DNA from: Neelides folsomi
Taxonomy: Eukaryota > Arthropoda > Collembola > Neelipleona > Neelidae
Direction: 5' to 3'
Assembly: GCA_034687125.1 (NCBI GenBank)
Contig: JAQGBZ010000100.1
Span: forward strand, 124,001-188,000
Length of the DNA stretch: 64,000 nucleotides
Shown here: piece after piece, positions 3,929-43,196 of the stretch
How the letters are laid out: each line of letters opens with the position of its first letter
Position numbering within the stretch: the first letter of the stretch is position 1
Position numbers and translations under genes: made by a program
The notes under the pieces: model-generated
Told to the model about the DNA's origin: nothing
What the model saw: only the letters and a program-made list of their open reading frames with translations
Databases searched by the model: none

Positions 3929-5481
<1,553 letters not shown>

Positions 5482-7853: not shown

Positions 7854-10800
7854 TCAGTCATCATTTGTTTCAGGGGTGAAGATTTGAATTTCTTCCGCAT
7901 CCTTGCATTTACCTTCTATTTGATTCTTCATTGCTTTCCTTTTTTCGGCAAGAAGTCTCTTCCTTGACTCATCCCTATTAATTCACATTAGCATAAAAAT
8001 TAAATCAAATTTCATTTGTACAAACTACTGCATTATAATATTAAATAATATTAGTTGAATGTTAAATCACATTAATTGGATTGGACAATTACCTTGCGCT
8101 ATTTGAGGGCCCTGGTTTTGGTGTCGATTTTCCAGCAGTATTTCCAGGCTTATTTGGACCTCGTCCGATGGTTTTCAGAGGATTTGCTTTTCTCGATTGT
8201 TGGCTTTCCCGTTTTGGGTCATGATCTGAAATAGTAGCTTGCACAGTCTGTAAAAATACAATAAAACGCTATGATTGAATATTCATTTGTCATCTTTAAT
8301 CAAAATTCAAATTCCCAATTTTAAAATATCATTTTATCTCATTGATGAATTTTACCTTATTTTGCCCCTTTTGCAATTCGTGAAACATGGAATGAATTTG
8401 GTCGACTTGTATGAGAACCATATCCCAAAATCCAGCCAAATCTTCATTTTTTGTTATAAACGGTTGGTCTACAACACCCTGTTCCTCCTGAAATTAATAT
8501 TTATCTCATATAATTTATATAGATAATGAATAGTCTGTGTGTTTAAACAATTGATCAACTTTTTAACCAAGTAGGAGTATAACTCAGGATGGTCTAAATC
8601 GTTTTAAGATAACGGATAATTAATAAAATTTCTAAAAATATTAAAACGTCATCATACCAGATTTTTGTAGCATAGCTCTTCAAACTGCTTGAATTTCTTC
8701 ACAATGAGAAGATTTGCTTTTCCAATAGCAGCCCTCAATTTTCCAGCTTCTTCACCATTCGGGTCGAGGATTTCAAGTTCTTCTGAGGCTTTTGTCGACA
8801 ACTCAATGATTTCCTCTTTTGTTCTCCCCATCTCTTTAAGAAAATATTCCCCGTTGAGCTCAACATCTTCATTTTCCTTGTTCATGCTCGCGTGCGGGTA
8901 ATGGGACGAGACCGAGGTGTCTTCTTCAGAAATTTTCATCGTTTGAATTTCGGTCATTTCCGGTTTGCAAAGGATGTTTTTCTTAAGGAGTCTCCGAACT
9001 TCTTCCACGTCTTCGTCCTCCCTCTCAACTTGTCTTGAAGGACAGGACCCTGTTATCTCAATAGTTGAATGAGTCGACTCTCCTCCTCCACCTTCTTCCA
9101 ATTTCTCAAACAGGCAGAGGCCGGCACTTGAAGCCTCTTCCATCCCATGGCTGCTCCCAATGTCGTAGAGATCTTTAAAGTTCTTATTTACATGAAGAAT
9201 TTTTATCTCCCTCCCATTCTCCTTCTTTGTCCCGTCCCCATTCGCAGCCCCGTTGGTCGCCACTGGAGTACATGGAGCTTTGTTGATTGGAAACGAATGA
9301 ACTCCAGGAGTTGTTGTGAGACTCTCGTTTTCGTACACTGGTTTTCGGCTAGGTTTCCAATTCGATTTTGCCTCCACTTCAATGGGAATAATTCGTTCAA
9401 CAGATTCACTGTTTCCGTTTGTTTCCCCTCGCCCGGTTCTTCTCCAAAAGAAACCAGAAGCTATAGCTTCAGTCCCATATAGACGCTCGATCTTTTGCAT
9501 GATGAATGACTTGTCTGTTGAAGGAGCTTTGGAGTCGACAGCGTCGTTCCCGCATGGTTCTTCATAAGAGGGCAAAATGGGCCGAACACGATTTTCTCCA
9601 TCTTTTCGTTTACCGGTTCTTTGGACGAAGTCTGATTTAAGATTGGCGATAGGATTTTGAGGAGGTTTTGGCCCACCCCCGCCACCGGAACTCTTGTTGT
9701 AGGAAAGACATGTGTAGCCACAGACGGATCGAGACACGTTCAGATACGAAGGAGCTTGGCGTTCATCCTTATTTCCAACCTGAATATTAAAAACATTTAT
9801 TTTTTGATATTTTAATTTTAATTAATACAATTCAAATATATAATAATTTAATTTATATTGGGCCATTCATAAATTATATTAATCAAAATAAATTTTAAAC
9901 TTTAAAGGTCCCAATAGAGCACATTTCACATTGGTCAAAAACTAGTAGGTATATTTTAGATTTTTTAAACTGCATTTCTTATGACAGTTGAAGATTTTAT
10001 TTATTACCTCAGGTAAAGAGTCTTGAATCATTGTGATATGAATTTACAATAAATTATTTGATTCTATCAACACAATTTGTTATTTAGTTAAAACTTTTAG
10101 CAAACAAATGGCACAGGAGAAAATGTCTGGTTCCAAATGGTGTTTTCTTTCCAAATGTCAGTATGTAATGAGGAGGATTGAACAATTTGTTGAACAAGCA
10201 AAGGGCTTATTAGTTACTATTTGTGAAAATGATATGTTGACTATCTCTCTCATAATTGTAATAAAGGACTGGATCATGATAGAAGAAGAATATTGAGAAA
10301 CATAGGAGAGGAGATATGGATAAATTATGAAAGTGGGATCGTGACAGTTCTAGTGATAATAAAAGCAAATGTTGATCAAAGACCTTGGATAATCCATCCC
10401 TGTGAATTGGGTTACTCACTCTCTTTAATACTTTATGGGCGTATTTGCCATTGTAGTTCCATCATCATCAATGCATACTCACATCACAGTTGATTAATAC
10501 GATGACTCACCAGAGGAGGATAACCAAAGGAAATCATGTGTCTTATTGTTTGATATGCTAATACCATATTTATAAATATTAATAAGTTACCAATTATCAT
10601 ATCCTCAATTATTTAAACACGGACCTCGATTATTAGATTATTCCTATTATTAGAAATCACCCCATCTTATCTTCATTTCACTTATTGTTCAGAGTCAAAG
10701 AATGTTTAAAAGCTCTCTGTATTTATGAATGTGTTATTGGTATAGGAAGTGCATGTGACAAATGTCACTCAACATTCTTTGGATGAAGAAGAGGAATTTA

Positions 10801-26262: not shown

Positions 26263-31301
<5,039 letters not shown>

Positions 31302-36845: not shown

Positions 36846-37669
36846 TAGTAATTGTAATTAAATATGTTTAATGTTAGATGTATCTGATTTGTTAAATAAA
36901 TGAAATTGTACAAAAATTAATTCAGTAGATAACAATCCTTTAATAACGTCAATATTTGTCTAATTTCATATACTGAAAAGATTTAAACCCAAATCAAAAC
37001 TTAAATTATTTGACCTAATTAACATGATTGAATCTCTTTTTTGGCTCTTCAATGCATAAAATAAATAATGTGTAATATTTATCTTAATTAACAATACTAA
37101 AAATTTAACCTCATTAATATACAATTCTCCAATATACTATAAGTTTAATAAATTGTATTTTAATAAATTTTTATTTGTATAAATACTTTCAATACAAATT
37201 ATTTATTTTTTAGAATTGTGGTAAATACAATTTTAATACATTGATTCATTCCGATTAACTGAATTCAAAAACATTAACCCTTTTAAACTTATGAGATAGC
37301 CATATAAATACTTACAGTTAAGTACCTTAAGTTAAATTACTTTAGAACATTGACATTTGTATTGAAAATGAATGTTTAGAAGCACAACATTTTTGGAATT
37401 TTTTGTATCATGTGGTATTTGAAGCCTACCCATTTAATTCCTACCCATAAATTCACAATAGGTAATGTAATTGCACTTTTAAGGTATTTAAACAACTATC
37501 TAATTTAAATATTTAATTACATAAAATAAATGCTAATTAACCTTATAGATTTGAATTAACCATTTAAATTGCATTGAACCATGAGGAAAGAAAAATAAAT
37601 AAATGACAATGTCTGTGATTATAAGGATTGTATCATTTTTGATTGAGTTTAGTATGAATGGGAAGATTT
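36846..37669. other. Convergent spacer between the Tg1-repeat gene and the small membrane-protein gene
   Basis: Very AT-rich, 0.8 kb. Apart from the polyadenylation signal at its start nothing was recognised. Confidence 0.4.
36895..36900 (+). terminator. Polyadenylation signal AATAAA of the Tg1-repeat gene
   Basis: AATAAA lies 50 bases beyond the stop codon at 36845, the expected position for a short 3' untranslated region. Confidence 0.55.
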
Positions 37670-39678
37670 TCATTTCTTCTTTTTTAATTCCTTCAACCTT
37701 CGTTTCTCCTCTTTCTTCCTCTCCTTTTCTTTAAGACTTTGAATTAATTTGTAGCTGAAGAACCCTGAAATTAAAAAAAATCAAATAATAACATCGTTTA
37801 TTCATAATACATTTTTCAATATTATAAAAAATCTACAGATAAAATATATAAATCCAACCATTTCATTTAATTGTACTCAAATATGGAATTACTATTATCG
37901 TTAGATTAACAGGATTAATAGAAAATGTATTATGTAATAACCAAGGACTGAAAAGACAAAGAGAAACGCAAAGACGTAAATTGACCAATGAAGCAACAAA
38001 AATCCAGAAGGGTCTTGCTTTTTGTAATTCTTCAACATTTCAGTAAAAGCATTTTCATCGTCGGCGTCCATGGGACGAATTTCGCCAGATTCTTCGCTAC
38101 TATAATCAAGATCTTCGACCCCCGCATCGGAAATCGCTTGTTCCTTCAGTCGATTCATGATGTCTCTTGTAACACTCTCCATTTTCACTTTTTAACTTCA
38201 ATTTATAAAATAACCCGACAAAGCTTCCTTTTTTATCGACAATATTGAATGAAAATTAAATGACAAAACGAGAGACGATATGTGGAGCAAGAGCCAAGGA
38301 AATATTGACTGAGAATCCTAATTATTAACCGTATCGATTCACTGCCACGTTGACCCTCGTCTAAAGTTGAATTTACAAAAAAACTAATTTTGCTTCGCTC
38401 ATCAAATCATTCATACAGAGTTATCTCTAAAATAATAAATATACCTACAGTTATACGGCATTTGACTAAAAGTGATGATCGTGCTTATATGTTACATTTT
38501 AACACGAGCACATAAAATTACTAATTTTTAAATATTAAATTAAGGTTAGTGTAATAGAAAAATTAATAACCGATAAGTGAAAAAACAAAGAGGAAGGCGA
38601 AGACGTAAATGGACCAGTGGAGAAACAATCCAGGAGTTCCTTGTCTCGTGTAGTTCTTCAACAGTTGTTTAATTGTTTCTTCGTCCATGGTAGGAATTTG
38701 ATCAGATTGTTCGCTGGTAAAATCAAGATCGTCGGGGCTTGCAGCAGCAGCCACCTTTGCCTTTATTTTTTCAAGAATCTCGTCGGTGTCGAATCCGCTC
38801 TCCATTTTGGCTTATTTGACTCAAATCAGAAAGTTGAACTGAATAGTTCTCCTATGTAGGAGTCAACATGTGAAGTATAAAGGTTGATAATGGAGAATCT
38901 TCCTTAATGGATGATTTGATTGCCACGTTGGCTCTCGTCTACAGTATATTATTATTTTATCCAATACAAAACACTGATTATACTTAAACTTAGCTCATCA
39001 TATCAGGGCGCTTATCTCTTATTTATATAAATACTCTAGCTCTATAATACACTTTGGCCTAAATATTAATATATAGTTAGTCGTAACAAAATAATATACT
39101 ACCTAAATATAGATTTGTCCTAATGGGACAATAATTAACATTGCTACAATCTTACAATAATTTATTTTAACTAGATACTTAAGAGTTGATAAACACATTA
39201 AATCGTTATAATTGTGCTAAATGCAAAATGATAGATAACAGTATTAATCCCATTAATATTTATACCATGGTATGGTATATCTAAAACTAAAAACTTAATT
39301 TTAGTTAATGTATAGACATACCTATTCCATATTAGATACACAATTTTAACCAACTTTATCTCCTTCAGACTTGCATCAAAAATTATATATTTTGGCCTGT
39401 TACATTTTTTTAAAAATGTTAATTTAAAATAATCTTAGCTAATTTTAATGATAGTATGTAGATAGATATAATGCCCTTGATTTTAAAACACTTGATTATA
39501 TTTAACATAAACCACGGTGGATTTGATTTGGCAAATATTGATAGAATAAAAATAATAATTTTAAAGATATTTAAAAATAATACTCACCAACAAGTGATAA
39601 GACAAATATTCCAGCAAAGATGAAGACTGTATTGTTGAATCCATGTTCATATGGTCCAGAGCCACCCAGTTCGACCAT
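37670..39678 (-). CDS. Small single-pass membrane protein with three alternative first exons (SMIM15-like tail)
   Basis: A common last exon, 37764-37670, codes for GFFSYKLIQSLKEKERKKEE and a basic end finishing KKKK. Three upstream exons end in phase 1 at a Gly codon next to GT and can all join the same acceptor: 39678-39588 (61-residue product), 38805-38571 (109) and 38182-37942 (111). Each supplies its own ATG and most of a transmembrane segment, and the two longer ones add an acidic N-terminus. One membrane span followed by a Lys/Glu-rich tail resembles vertebrate SMIM15 (also a DPxGFL block before its membrane span), but the match is short and could be convergent. The final KKKK fits the KKxx ER-retrieval signal if the tail is cytosolic. 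No catalytic motif is present. Exon sums are multiples of three for all three isoforms. Confidence 0.7.
37942..38182 (-). CDS. Alternative first exon c (paralogous to exon b)
   Basis: ATG at 38182 starts MESVTRDIMNRLKEQ. Then come an acidic stretch (EDLDYSSEESGEIRPMDADD), MLKNYKKQDPSGF and LHWSIYVFAFLFVFSVLG. LHWSIYVFAFLFVFS is identical to exon b, while the N-terminal half has drifted. The donor is G/GTTATT and the intron to the common exon is 177 bp. Confidence 0.68.
38343..38352 (-). promoter_or_regulatory. Conserved element TGCCACGTTG upstream of exon c
   Basis: It lies 161 bases before the exon c start codon. It sits in a longer block, with ...CTCGTCTA.AG nearby, also found upstream of exon b. 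The GCCACGT core matches the binding core of the ER-stress factor XBP1. That reading is inference. Confidence 0.4.
38571..38805 (-). CDS. Alternative first exon b (paralogous to exon c)
   Basis: ATG at 38805 starts MESGFDTDEILEKIKAK. An acidic stretch (DDLDFTSEQSDQIPTMDEE) is followed by LLKNYTRQ and LHWSIYVFAFLFVFSLIG. The donor is G/GTTATT, identical to that of exon c. An in-frame TAA follows at once, so without splicing the frame ends here. Confidence 0.68.
38921..38930 (-). promoter_or_regulatory. Conserved element TGCCACGTTG upstream of exon b
   Basis: It lies 116 bases before the exon b start codon, in the same sequence context as its copy upstream of exon c (GAGAATC before, CTCGTCTA.AG after). 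It has been retained while neighbouring bases diverged. Confidence 0.4.
39588..39678 (-). CDS. Alternative first exon a of the small membrane-protein gene
   Basis: ATG at 39678 starts MVELGGSGPYEHGFNNT followed by VFIFAGIFVLSLVG. The donor G/GTGAGTA is the best of the three. It lacks the acidic N-terminus of exons b and c and gives a 61-residue protein. The upstream sequence shares no obvious element with the other two. Confidence 0.65.
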
Positions 39679-40972: not shown

Positions 40973-43196
40973 TTATCGACTTCGCGATCTATGTTTCTTT
41001 TTACTGATTTGAGTTTCCGAATGGTCCGGTTCGAAAATATTGGTTGACTGATTTTCTGACACACTATTGGGCCTAGTTGTCAAAATCTGTCCCGACGGCA
41101 TCGGTTTCCTCACGCCCCTCTCGACAAACTCGCTGCCTTGGTTGTTATTATTGATTGAGGGCTCATTTTGCGGGCTGGCTTCATCACTCGAGTTCACCTC
41201 GGTATTCTTGAGATGATAATGATGGATCTTCATGCTCCCTTTATCATATGCCTCCAGGCTTCGAGCGATGGCGGATAAACGACTCGTTTCATCTCTAATT
41301 TCTCTCTGGGCCTCGAGCACGGATGGGTCGACTGGAATGACTGTCACAATGAAATTCCGCTGCTGCCAATCTCGCCAAACTGATATATGATACCTGTGAG
41401 CACAGTCACGCCTGATTTAATTTCAACTCATTTCAACACCCTTTGACATTACTACCAAAATATATTATTGGGCAGAAATTTGAAACTGTAAGCCTGAGGG
41501 AGTATTTAAAACTAATATAAGAAATATTTTATTGGAACTATTTACTTATTTAATATTCACTAATACAATATAATAATATTATACAAAGTATAAGGTGTAT
41601 ATTAAATTAAGGTTAAAATACCGAATTGCGACAAAGAGCCAAACGTAATAAGCAGCGAGAAGCGTTCCAGTCAAGGTTAACAAACCGATCGCCGTCCAAG
41701 TGGAATTTGCATCTTCGATTGAGGCCGAACCACGACCATGATAAAATCCTTTAGCAGAATGATGATGATGATTTTGTTGCTTTACATTCCCAATATATGA
41801 ACTCAGCCAATCTCCTTCCTGAACATCATTAACCTTTAGAATTAAGAATATATTTAAAGTCGGGCATTGTAAAAATTTTAAATTGTTTCACAGAAAAGAG
41901 AAAAAAGAGAAAGAAAAGAGAAAGTGAAAAGAAAGGAAGAAAATGAAATTTTTTGTTCAAATTCCTTTCCAGGTCGTGCACGGAATATTTTTAATATATT
42001 TGATGGTATTTGCTCAGCATTAGCTAGTATGGTTAAAATTATCATACCGGGTCGGGTCCAGCTCCAGAGCCAACAATACAAAGCCAGGCGCTCAAGAAAG
42101 CCAAAGGAGTTAAGATCAAAAAGCAAGCGAGGTCAAAAAACAGATTGCGAGTGTCTGCAGGATTTTGAGGGTGTCTGAGCCAACCACAAAAGCTTCTCCA
42201 TCCTGTGAACTTTAAAATTATTTTAATAATTTTATCATATTTCACATTTTTATAATACTAACAATAAGAAAGTTGAGAAAAGTCATTTATCTACTTTGTC
42301 ATTTTAATTGTGAATGAATTTATAATTGAATACTTGAAATAAACTTTACTCGGGGTTTTCGAATAGTTGTGAATTCAAAGCCACAGATTTCGCAGTTGGT
42401 TTTTGCAGCTTCCCCGAGCCAACGTTCCAAACAGCTCCGATGTACAAGTCCCATTGATCCTTATAATTTATTTAATAAACATTTATTTAACCATCAATTC
42501 GCAAAATTTTAAAGTGGGATCATTGTCAGAATAATAATTAATTATTGCATCTAGCATTTAAATTGGCATGAACAATGTATGGAATATTTTTGTCATTTTT
42601 GGAAAATAAATTTTACTTTTGGGAAAATATTTTTTGGGAAATTTTATAAGATTGTTTTACAATATTTTTTTATCAATCAATAACCTTTGCAGAGACAAGG
42701 AGAGATCAACGATTGTTTGCTTGGATTATCATGACAAATCCTACAAACTTCCTCCATGCTTTCCCTGCTTCCTCCATCCTGAGCAGGAAGAGCCGTCTGG
42801 GGACATTCAAGGTTCAAACTCAGAATTTCCTCTTCTGTCGCAGGAGCGACTTTGGCCGATGAAAGTGATGGCTTCTTTGAAACTTTGCCCTCATTGTTGT
42901 TGGAAATTGAAAACTCGTTCGGAGCGAGGTTGATTCCAATTGACGTTTGACTGTTTCTTTTTATTTCTACTTGGTTTTCTCCCGTGGCCTCTCCATTTTC
43001 CACGAGGGTCGTAGCGGAAGTTTCCTCATTAATTTTGTTCATCCCTTTTGTAGAGTCAGGCATTGGGTCCGGACCTAAGTTTTCATTCTCAATTCTACTT
43101 AAATCATCAAAACATACCCTAAAGGTCAAGATCATACCGGAAACTAGTGATGCTTCCCTCCGAGGTCGTTGGGCTTATTCTTTTCCTATCGGACAT
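40973..43196 (-). CDS. MARCH2/3-like membrane-bound RING-CH ubiquitin ligase
   Basis: Exons 43196-43138, 43097-42685, 42459-42350, 42209-42048, 41818-41622 and 41393-40973 join to 453 residues. MARCH ligases ubiquitinate membrane proteins in the endosomal and secretory system. The RING-CH (C4HC3) ligands are C138, C141, C154, C156, H164, C167, C180 and C183 (VCRICHDN, SPCLCKG, VHRSCLERW, NCEICGFEF). Two membrane spans follow, LFFDLACFLILTPLAFLSAWLCIV and the one in WTAIGLLTLTGTLLAAYYVW, then YHISVWRDW, matching MARCH2/3. A His-rich loop (HHHHS) between the spans and a 120-residue polar C-terminus ending HRSRSR are extra. The first intron would be only 40 bp. The alternative is no intron there and a start at 43135 (MILTFRV), which is also in frame. 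Confidence 0.85.

Follow-up and report, generated by a model that had tools for sequence, protein, structure and literature searches.

Genes in which tandem first exons are joined to common constant exons form a named class, the multiple-variable-first-exon clusters, to which UGT1, GCNT2 and the alpha and gamma clusters of PCDH belong (PMC1885805). As outlined in that source, the constant exons number four in UGT1, three in PCDH and two in GCNT2, mammalian GCNT2 has three variable exons, UGT1 and GCNT2 are described as having distinct promoters, and the variable exons of UGT1 are preceded by a conserved motif. Arthropod genes of similar design are described as well. In Drosophila Gr39a, alternative large exons (four known earlier and a fifth described in PMC2204066) are spliced to three small common exons, and in chelicerate sDscam tandem 5′ cassettes, each preceded by a promoter, are spliced to a constant exon (PMC4835542).

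In this study, we analysed a locus with comparable features in the springtail Neelides folsomi, using a 64,000-nucleotide stretch of one contig, hereafter the window. We read the locus, with a confidence clearly above even, as a single small gene in which three promoters serve three alternative first coding exons, each joined in phase 1 to the same constant last exon. The predicted features, with a slash marking each splice junction, are as follows.

39588..39678, minus strand: exon a; ATG, minimal N-terminus and membrane span, donor G/GTGAGT
38571..38805, minus strand: exon b; ATG, acidic N-terminus (net −7) and membrane span, donor G/GTTATT
37942..38182, minus strand: exon c; ATG, acidic N-terminus (net −9) and membrane span, donor G/GTTATTACAT
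37763..37780, minus strand: tail acceptor TTTTTTTTAATTTCAG/GG, splice-site score 13.82
37670..37764, minus strand: common tail exon, stop codon (TGA) included

The first exons follow one another on the minus strand in the order a, b, c. Each has A at −3 and G at +4 of its ATG, encodes one membrane span, and stops after the first base of a Gly codon, immediately before GT. When they are spliced to the acceptor at 37764 the frames stay open and yield proteins of 61 (a), 109 (b) and 111 (c) residues, and shifting the donor by one base in either direction breaks the tail frame in all three. The tail exon, translated as FFSYKLIQSLKEKERKKEEKRRLKELKKKK, supplies the remainder of the junction Gly, FFSYKLIQ, a lysine-rich stretch and the C-terminal KKKK followed by TGA; a 131-base query spanning it has a single match in the 75.1 Mb genome. 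Net charge is +9 for the constant C-terminus and −1, −7 and −9 for the N-termini of a, b and c, and the peak hydropathy of the membrane span lies between 2.14 and 2.22 across the three isoforms. The coordinates, phases and protein lengths that an earlier note on this DNA had given for the three ATG-bearing hydrophobic exons and their common KKKK tail could all be reproduced.

By its architecture, the predicted gene is another case of the established class: its first exons are tandem, related, equipped with their own start codons and of one phase that fits one constant exon, the relatedness of exon a to b and c being confined to the membrane span. The earlier note knew of no described animal gene with this arrangement, and here it was mistaken; its three-first-exon model is the best supported reading of the locus. 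Compared with UGT1, PCDH and GCNT2 as outlined in PMC1885805, the present gene shares the tandem first exons and the common constant part, but it has one constant exon and products of 61 to 111 residues, and one of its first exons (a) resembles the others only in the membrane span. The proteins themselves are unrelated as far as a Pfam comparison goes. Gr39a encodes a gustatory receptor and has three common exons where the present gene has one (PMC2204066), and the sDscam cassettes encode Ig domains and hold two or four exons apiece, unlike the single first exons seen here (PMC4835542). If our model is right, the variable-first-exon design of UGT1 and the protocadherins extends to a microprotein gene of about 60 to 110 residues, in which almost everything exposed on one side is exchanged while the anchor end and the basic tail stay constant. 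One narrow query of the open literature returned no microprotein with alternative first exons.

Probable kinship of the first exons

A search of the genome with exon b retrieved exon c with an E value of 6.7e-16, the next match, among the best candidates that were scored, being a weak one on contig C54 (E 0.37). The two exons share 39 of 76 aligned residues, and their divergence is that of coding sequence: over 76 codons dN is 0.31 and dS 1.05, the differences fall 22, 16 and 34 times at codon positions 1, 2 and 3, and changes affect 26 of 46 synonymous sites versus 46 of 182 nonsynonymous sites (Fisher P = 1.4e-4, on rounded counts). Conservation is highest in the membrane part (pN 0.13, as against 0.31 in the N-terminal part). 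Without gaps, 46 of the last 60 exon bases before the donor are identical and 31 of the 60 after it, with 8 matches among the first 12 bases just 3′ of the donor and 13 among the first 30. Judged by these comparisons, b and c are paralogues that have diverged like coding exons, with a purifying pattern over the pair, which bears out their earlier description as diverged tandem copies.

A two-sequence test of this kind is blind to which branch is constrained. A single live first exon among b and c, with its partner reduced to a relic, is conceivable, as is the use of both as rare cryptic starts only; the birth and death of variable exons in the UGT1 clusters, with pseudogenes and relics, as described in PMC1885805, would provide a precedent. 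Both frames are open, however, each ATG has a favourable context and the purifying pattern holds for the two exons taken together, so that we consider this reading improbable.

Exon a has no full-length relative; a search with it returned exon a itself, the tail and a weak place on contig C657 (E 1.5). The earlier note had called this exon unrelated to the others outside the membrane span, which agrees with our results, but the span itself aligns with those of b and c up to the junction. Over the last 15 residues, compared without gaps, a and b score 46 with seven identities, a value reached by none of 20,000 shuffles of the span, and a and c score 41 with six identities, equalled by 0.02% of 20,000 shuffles. 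When 20 residues were used, 0.01% (a/b) and 0.1% (a/c) of shuffles did as well, in a test whose shuffling also put polar residues into the span. We further compared 39 hydrophobic 15-mers that end in Gly, collected from elsewhere in the six frames of the window; none came close (best scores, 20 and 18), and a search of the window and 13.7 kb of flank with a pattern of the junction and span found no places beyond the three exons. Because the alignment of the spans runs up to the junction, a, b and c probably descend from one exon, convergence of membrane spans being the possible alternative. Their history might then be that an ancestral first exon was duplicated, and that the ancestor of b and c gained or kept a longer acidic N-terminus before it was duplicated again together with its promoter.

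AT-rich DNA can yield short hydrophobic open frames by chance, and the whole gene model would then be an artefact. Given the strength of the b/c match, the coding pattern of their divergence, the similarity of the a span to both and a tail acceptor that ranks first in the window (see below), we find this scarcely credible.

Candidate splice sites and transcript ends

Judged by textbook rules, a GTTATT donor is poor, and we therefore took the introns of conserved genes mapped in the same genome as a yardstick. Introns were mapped by spliced alignment with Escherichia coli proteins, requiring only GT and AG at their ends; 11 alignments with DnaK, enolase and two ATP synthase subunits gave 59 introns. 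Seven of these (45, 51, 51, 184, 287, 385 and 1,503 nt) were discarded by eye because their acceptors were rich in purines, their length was odd or they aligned poorly, which left 52 from 10 alignments. Two alignments (L077 and L081) stopped early, so that introns 5′ of those points are missing from the set. In a joined query of five E. coli proteins, five of eight matches were to enolase and three were weak ones to the GroL region; a search of the genome with GcvP gave no match. Most of the kept introns are firmly placed, forbidding the donor costing at least 4 score units in 49 of the 52. At position +3, 43 of the kept donors have A, 5 have G and 4 have T; at +5 the counts are 18 for T, 17 for G, 15 for A and 2 for C. 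As an observation on this intron-rich 75 Mb genome in general, donor use is loose, a G at +5 being in the minority (17 of 52).

Scored against this set with each donor left out in turn, donor a reaches 6.37 (15 of 52 mapped donors are lower), donor b 4.17 and donor c 4.34 (10 of 52 lower in either case). The donors of b and c thus lie within the mapped range, in its bottom fifth. The share of GTs in the window that score as high is 4.3% for a, 13.0% for b and 11.9% for c. An intron of the ATP synthase alpha gene (C256:37500-42500) begins with GTTATTACAT, the same ten bases that follow exon c, and this donor is firmly placed: the alignment loses 47 score units when it is forbidden. The acceptor at 37764 outscores all 52 kept mapped acceptors and ranks first among the 6,507 AGs on both strands of the window. 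Competing sites exist, namely an acceptor at 38426 (score 12.04) and GTs at 38215 and 38445 that outscore all three donors. The model of three first exons survives its odd GTTATT donors because these are judged against introns of the same genome; if donors of this type are usable here, annotation by textbook rules could split off or miss exons b and c.

By coordinates, the intron between exon a and the tail would be 1,823 nt long, that of b 806 nt and that of c 177 nt. The kept mapped introns span 63 to 340 nt, a range narrowed by the discarding of the 385- and 1,503-nt introns as doubtful and drawn from conserved housekeeping genes, whose intron length may not be typical; by that yardstick only the c intron is of ordinary size.

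These features bear on a different account of the locus, in which only a is spliced to the tail, and b and c are tandem single-exon genes inside the a-to-tail intron, encoding proteins of 80 and 93 residues anchored by a C-terminal span. Read-through past either donor is indeed short, and the span stays at the C-terminus: unspliced b reaches a stop at 38565-38563, one residue (Y) beyond the junction Gly, and unspliced c adds 12 residues (YYIIHFLLILLI) before its stop at 37903-37901. The donors of b and c are also on the weak side, and the c intron holds AATAAA at 37802 and ATTAAA at 37871, before the tail acceptor, so that c could in principle end before the tail. Against this, both exons reach G/GT in phase 1 as a does, with spans that align with that of a up to this point, the similarity between b and c drops after the donor and their read-through ends differ, and the c donor decamer is used elsewhere in the genome. 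In addition, the stretch from the b read-through stop to the c ATG contains none of the poly(A) hexamers AATAAA, ATTAAA and AGTAAA, an absence shared by 53 of 525 overlapping window stretches of similar length and GC content. We consider separate b and c genes unlikely, although this account deserves to be kept in mind, and prefer the model of alternative first exons. As none of the three hexamers occurs between the b stop and the c ATG, b probably depends on a 3′ end farther downstream; 3′ of the tail exon there are AATAAA at 37207 and 37175 and five ATTAAA.

Upstream regions, protein relatives and possible function

Upstream of b and c, two regions of the minus strand share short blocks.

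38921..39033, minus strand: upstream block of exon b; TATATAAAT (at 39029), GATGAGC, ACGAGAGCCAACGTGGCA
38343..38441, minus strand: upstream block of exon c; AGAGATAA, GATGAGC, ACGAGGGTCAACGTGGCA

Common to both are GATGAGC, ACGAG.G.CAACGTGGCA and their neighbours. The local alignment of the two upstream regions scores 36, whereas 500 simple shuffles averaged 24.3 and reached 35 at most. Aligned with these regions of b and c, the one upstream of a scores 21 and 23, which is no better than the average shuffle. The alignment scores fit a joint duplication of first exon and promoter in the case of b and c, with exon a using a promoter of its own, all these promoters being putative. With up to three mismatches allowed, a pattern built from the two blocks has 15 occurrences (one for a reversed-pattern control), of which only b and c themselves have two mismatches or fewer.

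An additional observation is that ACGTGGACAATCCAAT occurs at C3:492960-492975 on the minus strand, some 460 bases 5′ of the point where the alignment of a KDEL-ending HSP70 gene begins. The regions upstream of b and of this BiP-like gene have ACGTGG(A)CAATC.AAT in common, and this type of pattern, drawn post hoc from these same two sites, has only these two in 75 Mb; the region upstream of c is without the CAATC part.

The constant exon would contribute the last part of the membrane helix and, after it, a strongly basic C-terminus that finishes in KKKK. According to the positive-inside rule, the basic flank of a membrane span faces the cytosol, and a cytosolic C-terminus with lysines at −3 and −4 (KKXX) carries a retrieval signal for the endoplasmic reticulum (ER). 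The tail is thus predicted to be cytosolic, and the lysines at −3 and −4 of its KKKK, which fits KKXX by sequence, could serve as such a signal. Promoter choice would then swap the outer part of the protein between about ten residues (a) and about sixty acidic residues (b, c). One may speculate further that the gene encodes a tiny ER membrane protein whose minimal form (a) is made constitutively, the b and c forms with their acidic luminal domain being induced by stress, an idea to which we give very little credence.

The best Pfam family for all three spliced isoforms is SMIM15/UPF0542 (PF15086), an assignment that we rejected at 18.6, 15.9 and 17.0 bits against a cut-off of 27; an approximate sequence of human SMIM15 scores 119.7 bits. 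The same profile gave four matches in the genome, none above the cut-off, the best being the tail exon itself (19.0 bits, E 0.09). A 61-residue part of c scores 18.0 bits unshuffled, and none of ten segment shuffles (five of this part, five of a 55-residue part of a) matched PF15086; the same shuffles reached 22.4 bits in the unrelated family LapA_dom. An isoform given an artificial N-terminus still scores 16.2 bits, so the first exon adds little to the PF15086 score. The resemblance consists of a single span followed by a basic tail, as in SMIM15, and we treat kinship with SMIM15 as a lead only. Among the literature matches listed for SMIM15, none was by its title a study of protein function. 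A match to the solved structure TMH4C4 (E 0.012), which we take to be a designed protein, was set aside as an effect of composition.

Several other open frames lie in the window. The frame at 42677-43174 (minus strand) has a partial RING-variant (RINGv) match at its C-terminal end (20.9 bits; cut-off, 21.6) and looks to us like a MARCH-type ubiquitin ligase; that at 40973-41416 (minus strand) has no Pfam match, and it is our guess that the two belong to the same gene. Minus-strand frames also carry an MH1 domain (27403-27927; E 1.4e-27), presumably of a Smad- or NFI-like gene, a GKAP match (8655-9821; 31.0 bits) and a HOOK_N match (2027-2443; 27.0 bits), and a plus-strand zf-CCCH match at 4342-4842 falls just below its cut-off (19.8 versus 20.5 bits). 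Elsewhere in the assembly, frames resembling ND2, COX1, COX2 and ATP6 follow one another in this order on the same strand of a single contig, an arrangement suggestive of an arthropod; the names ND2, COX2 and ATP6, though not COX1, are tentative.
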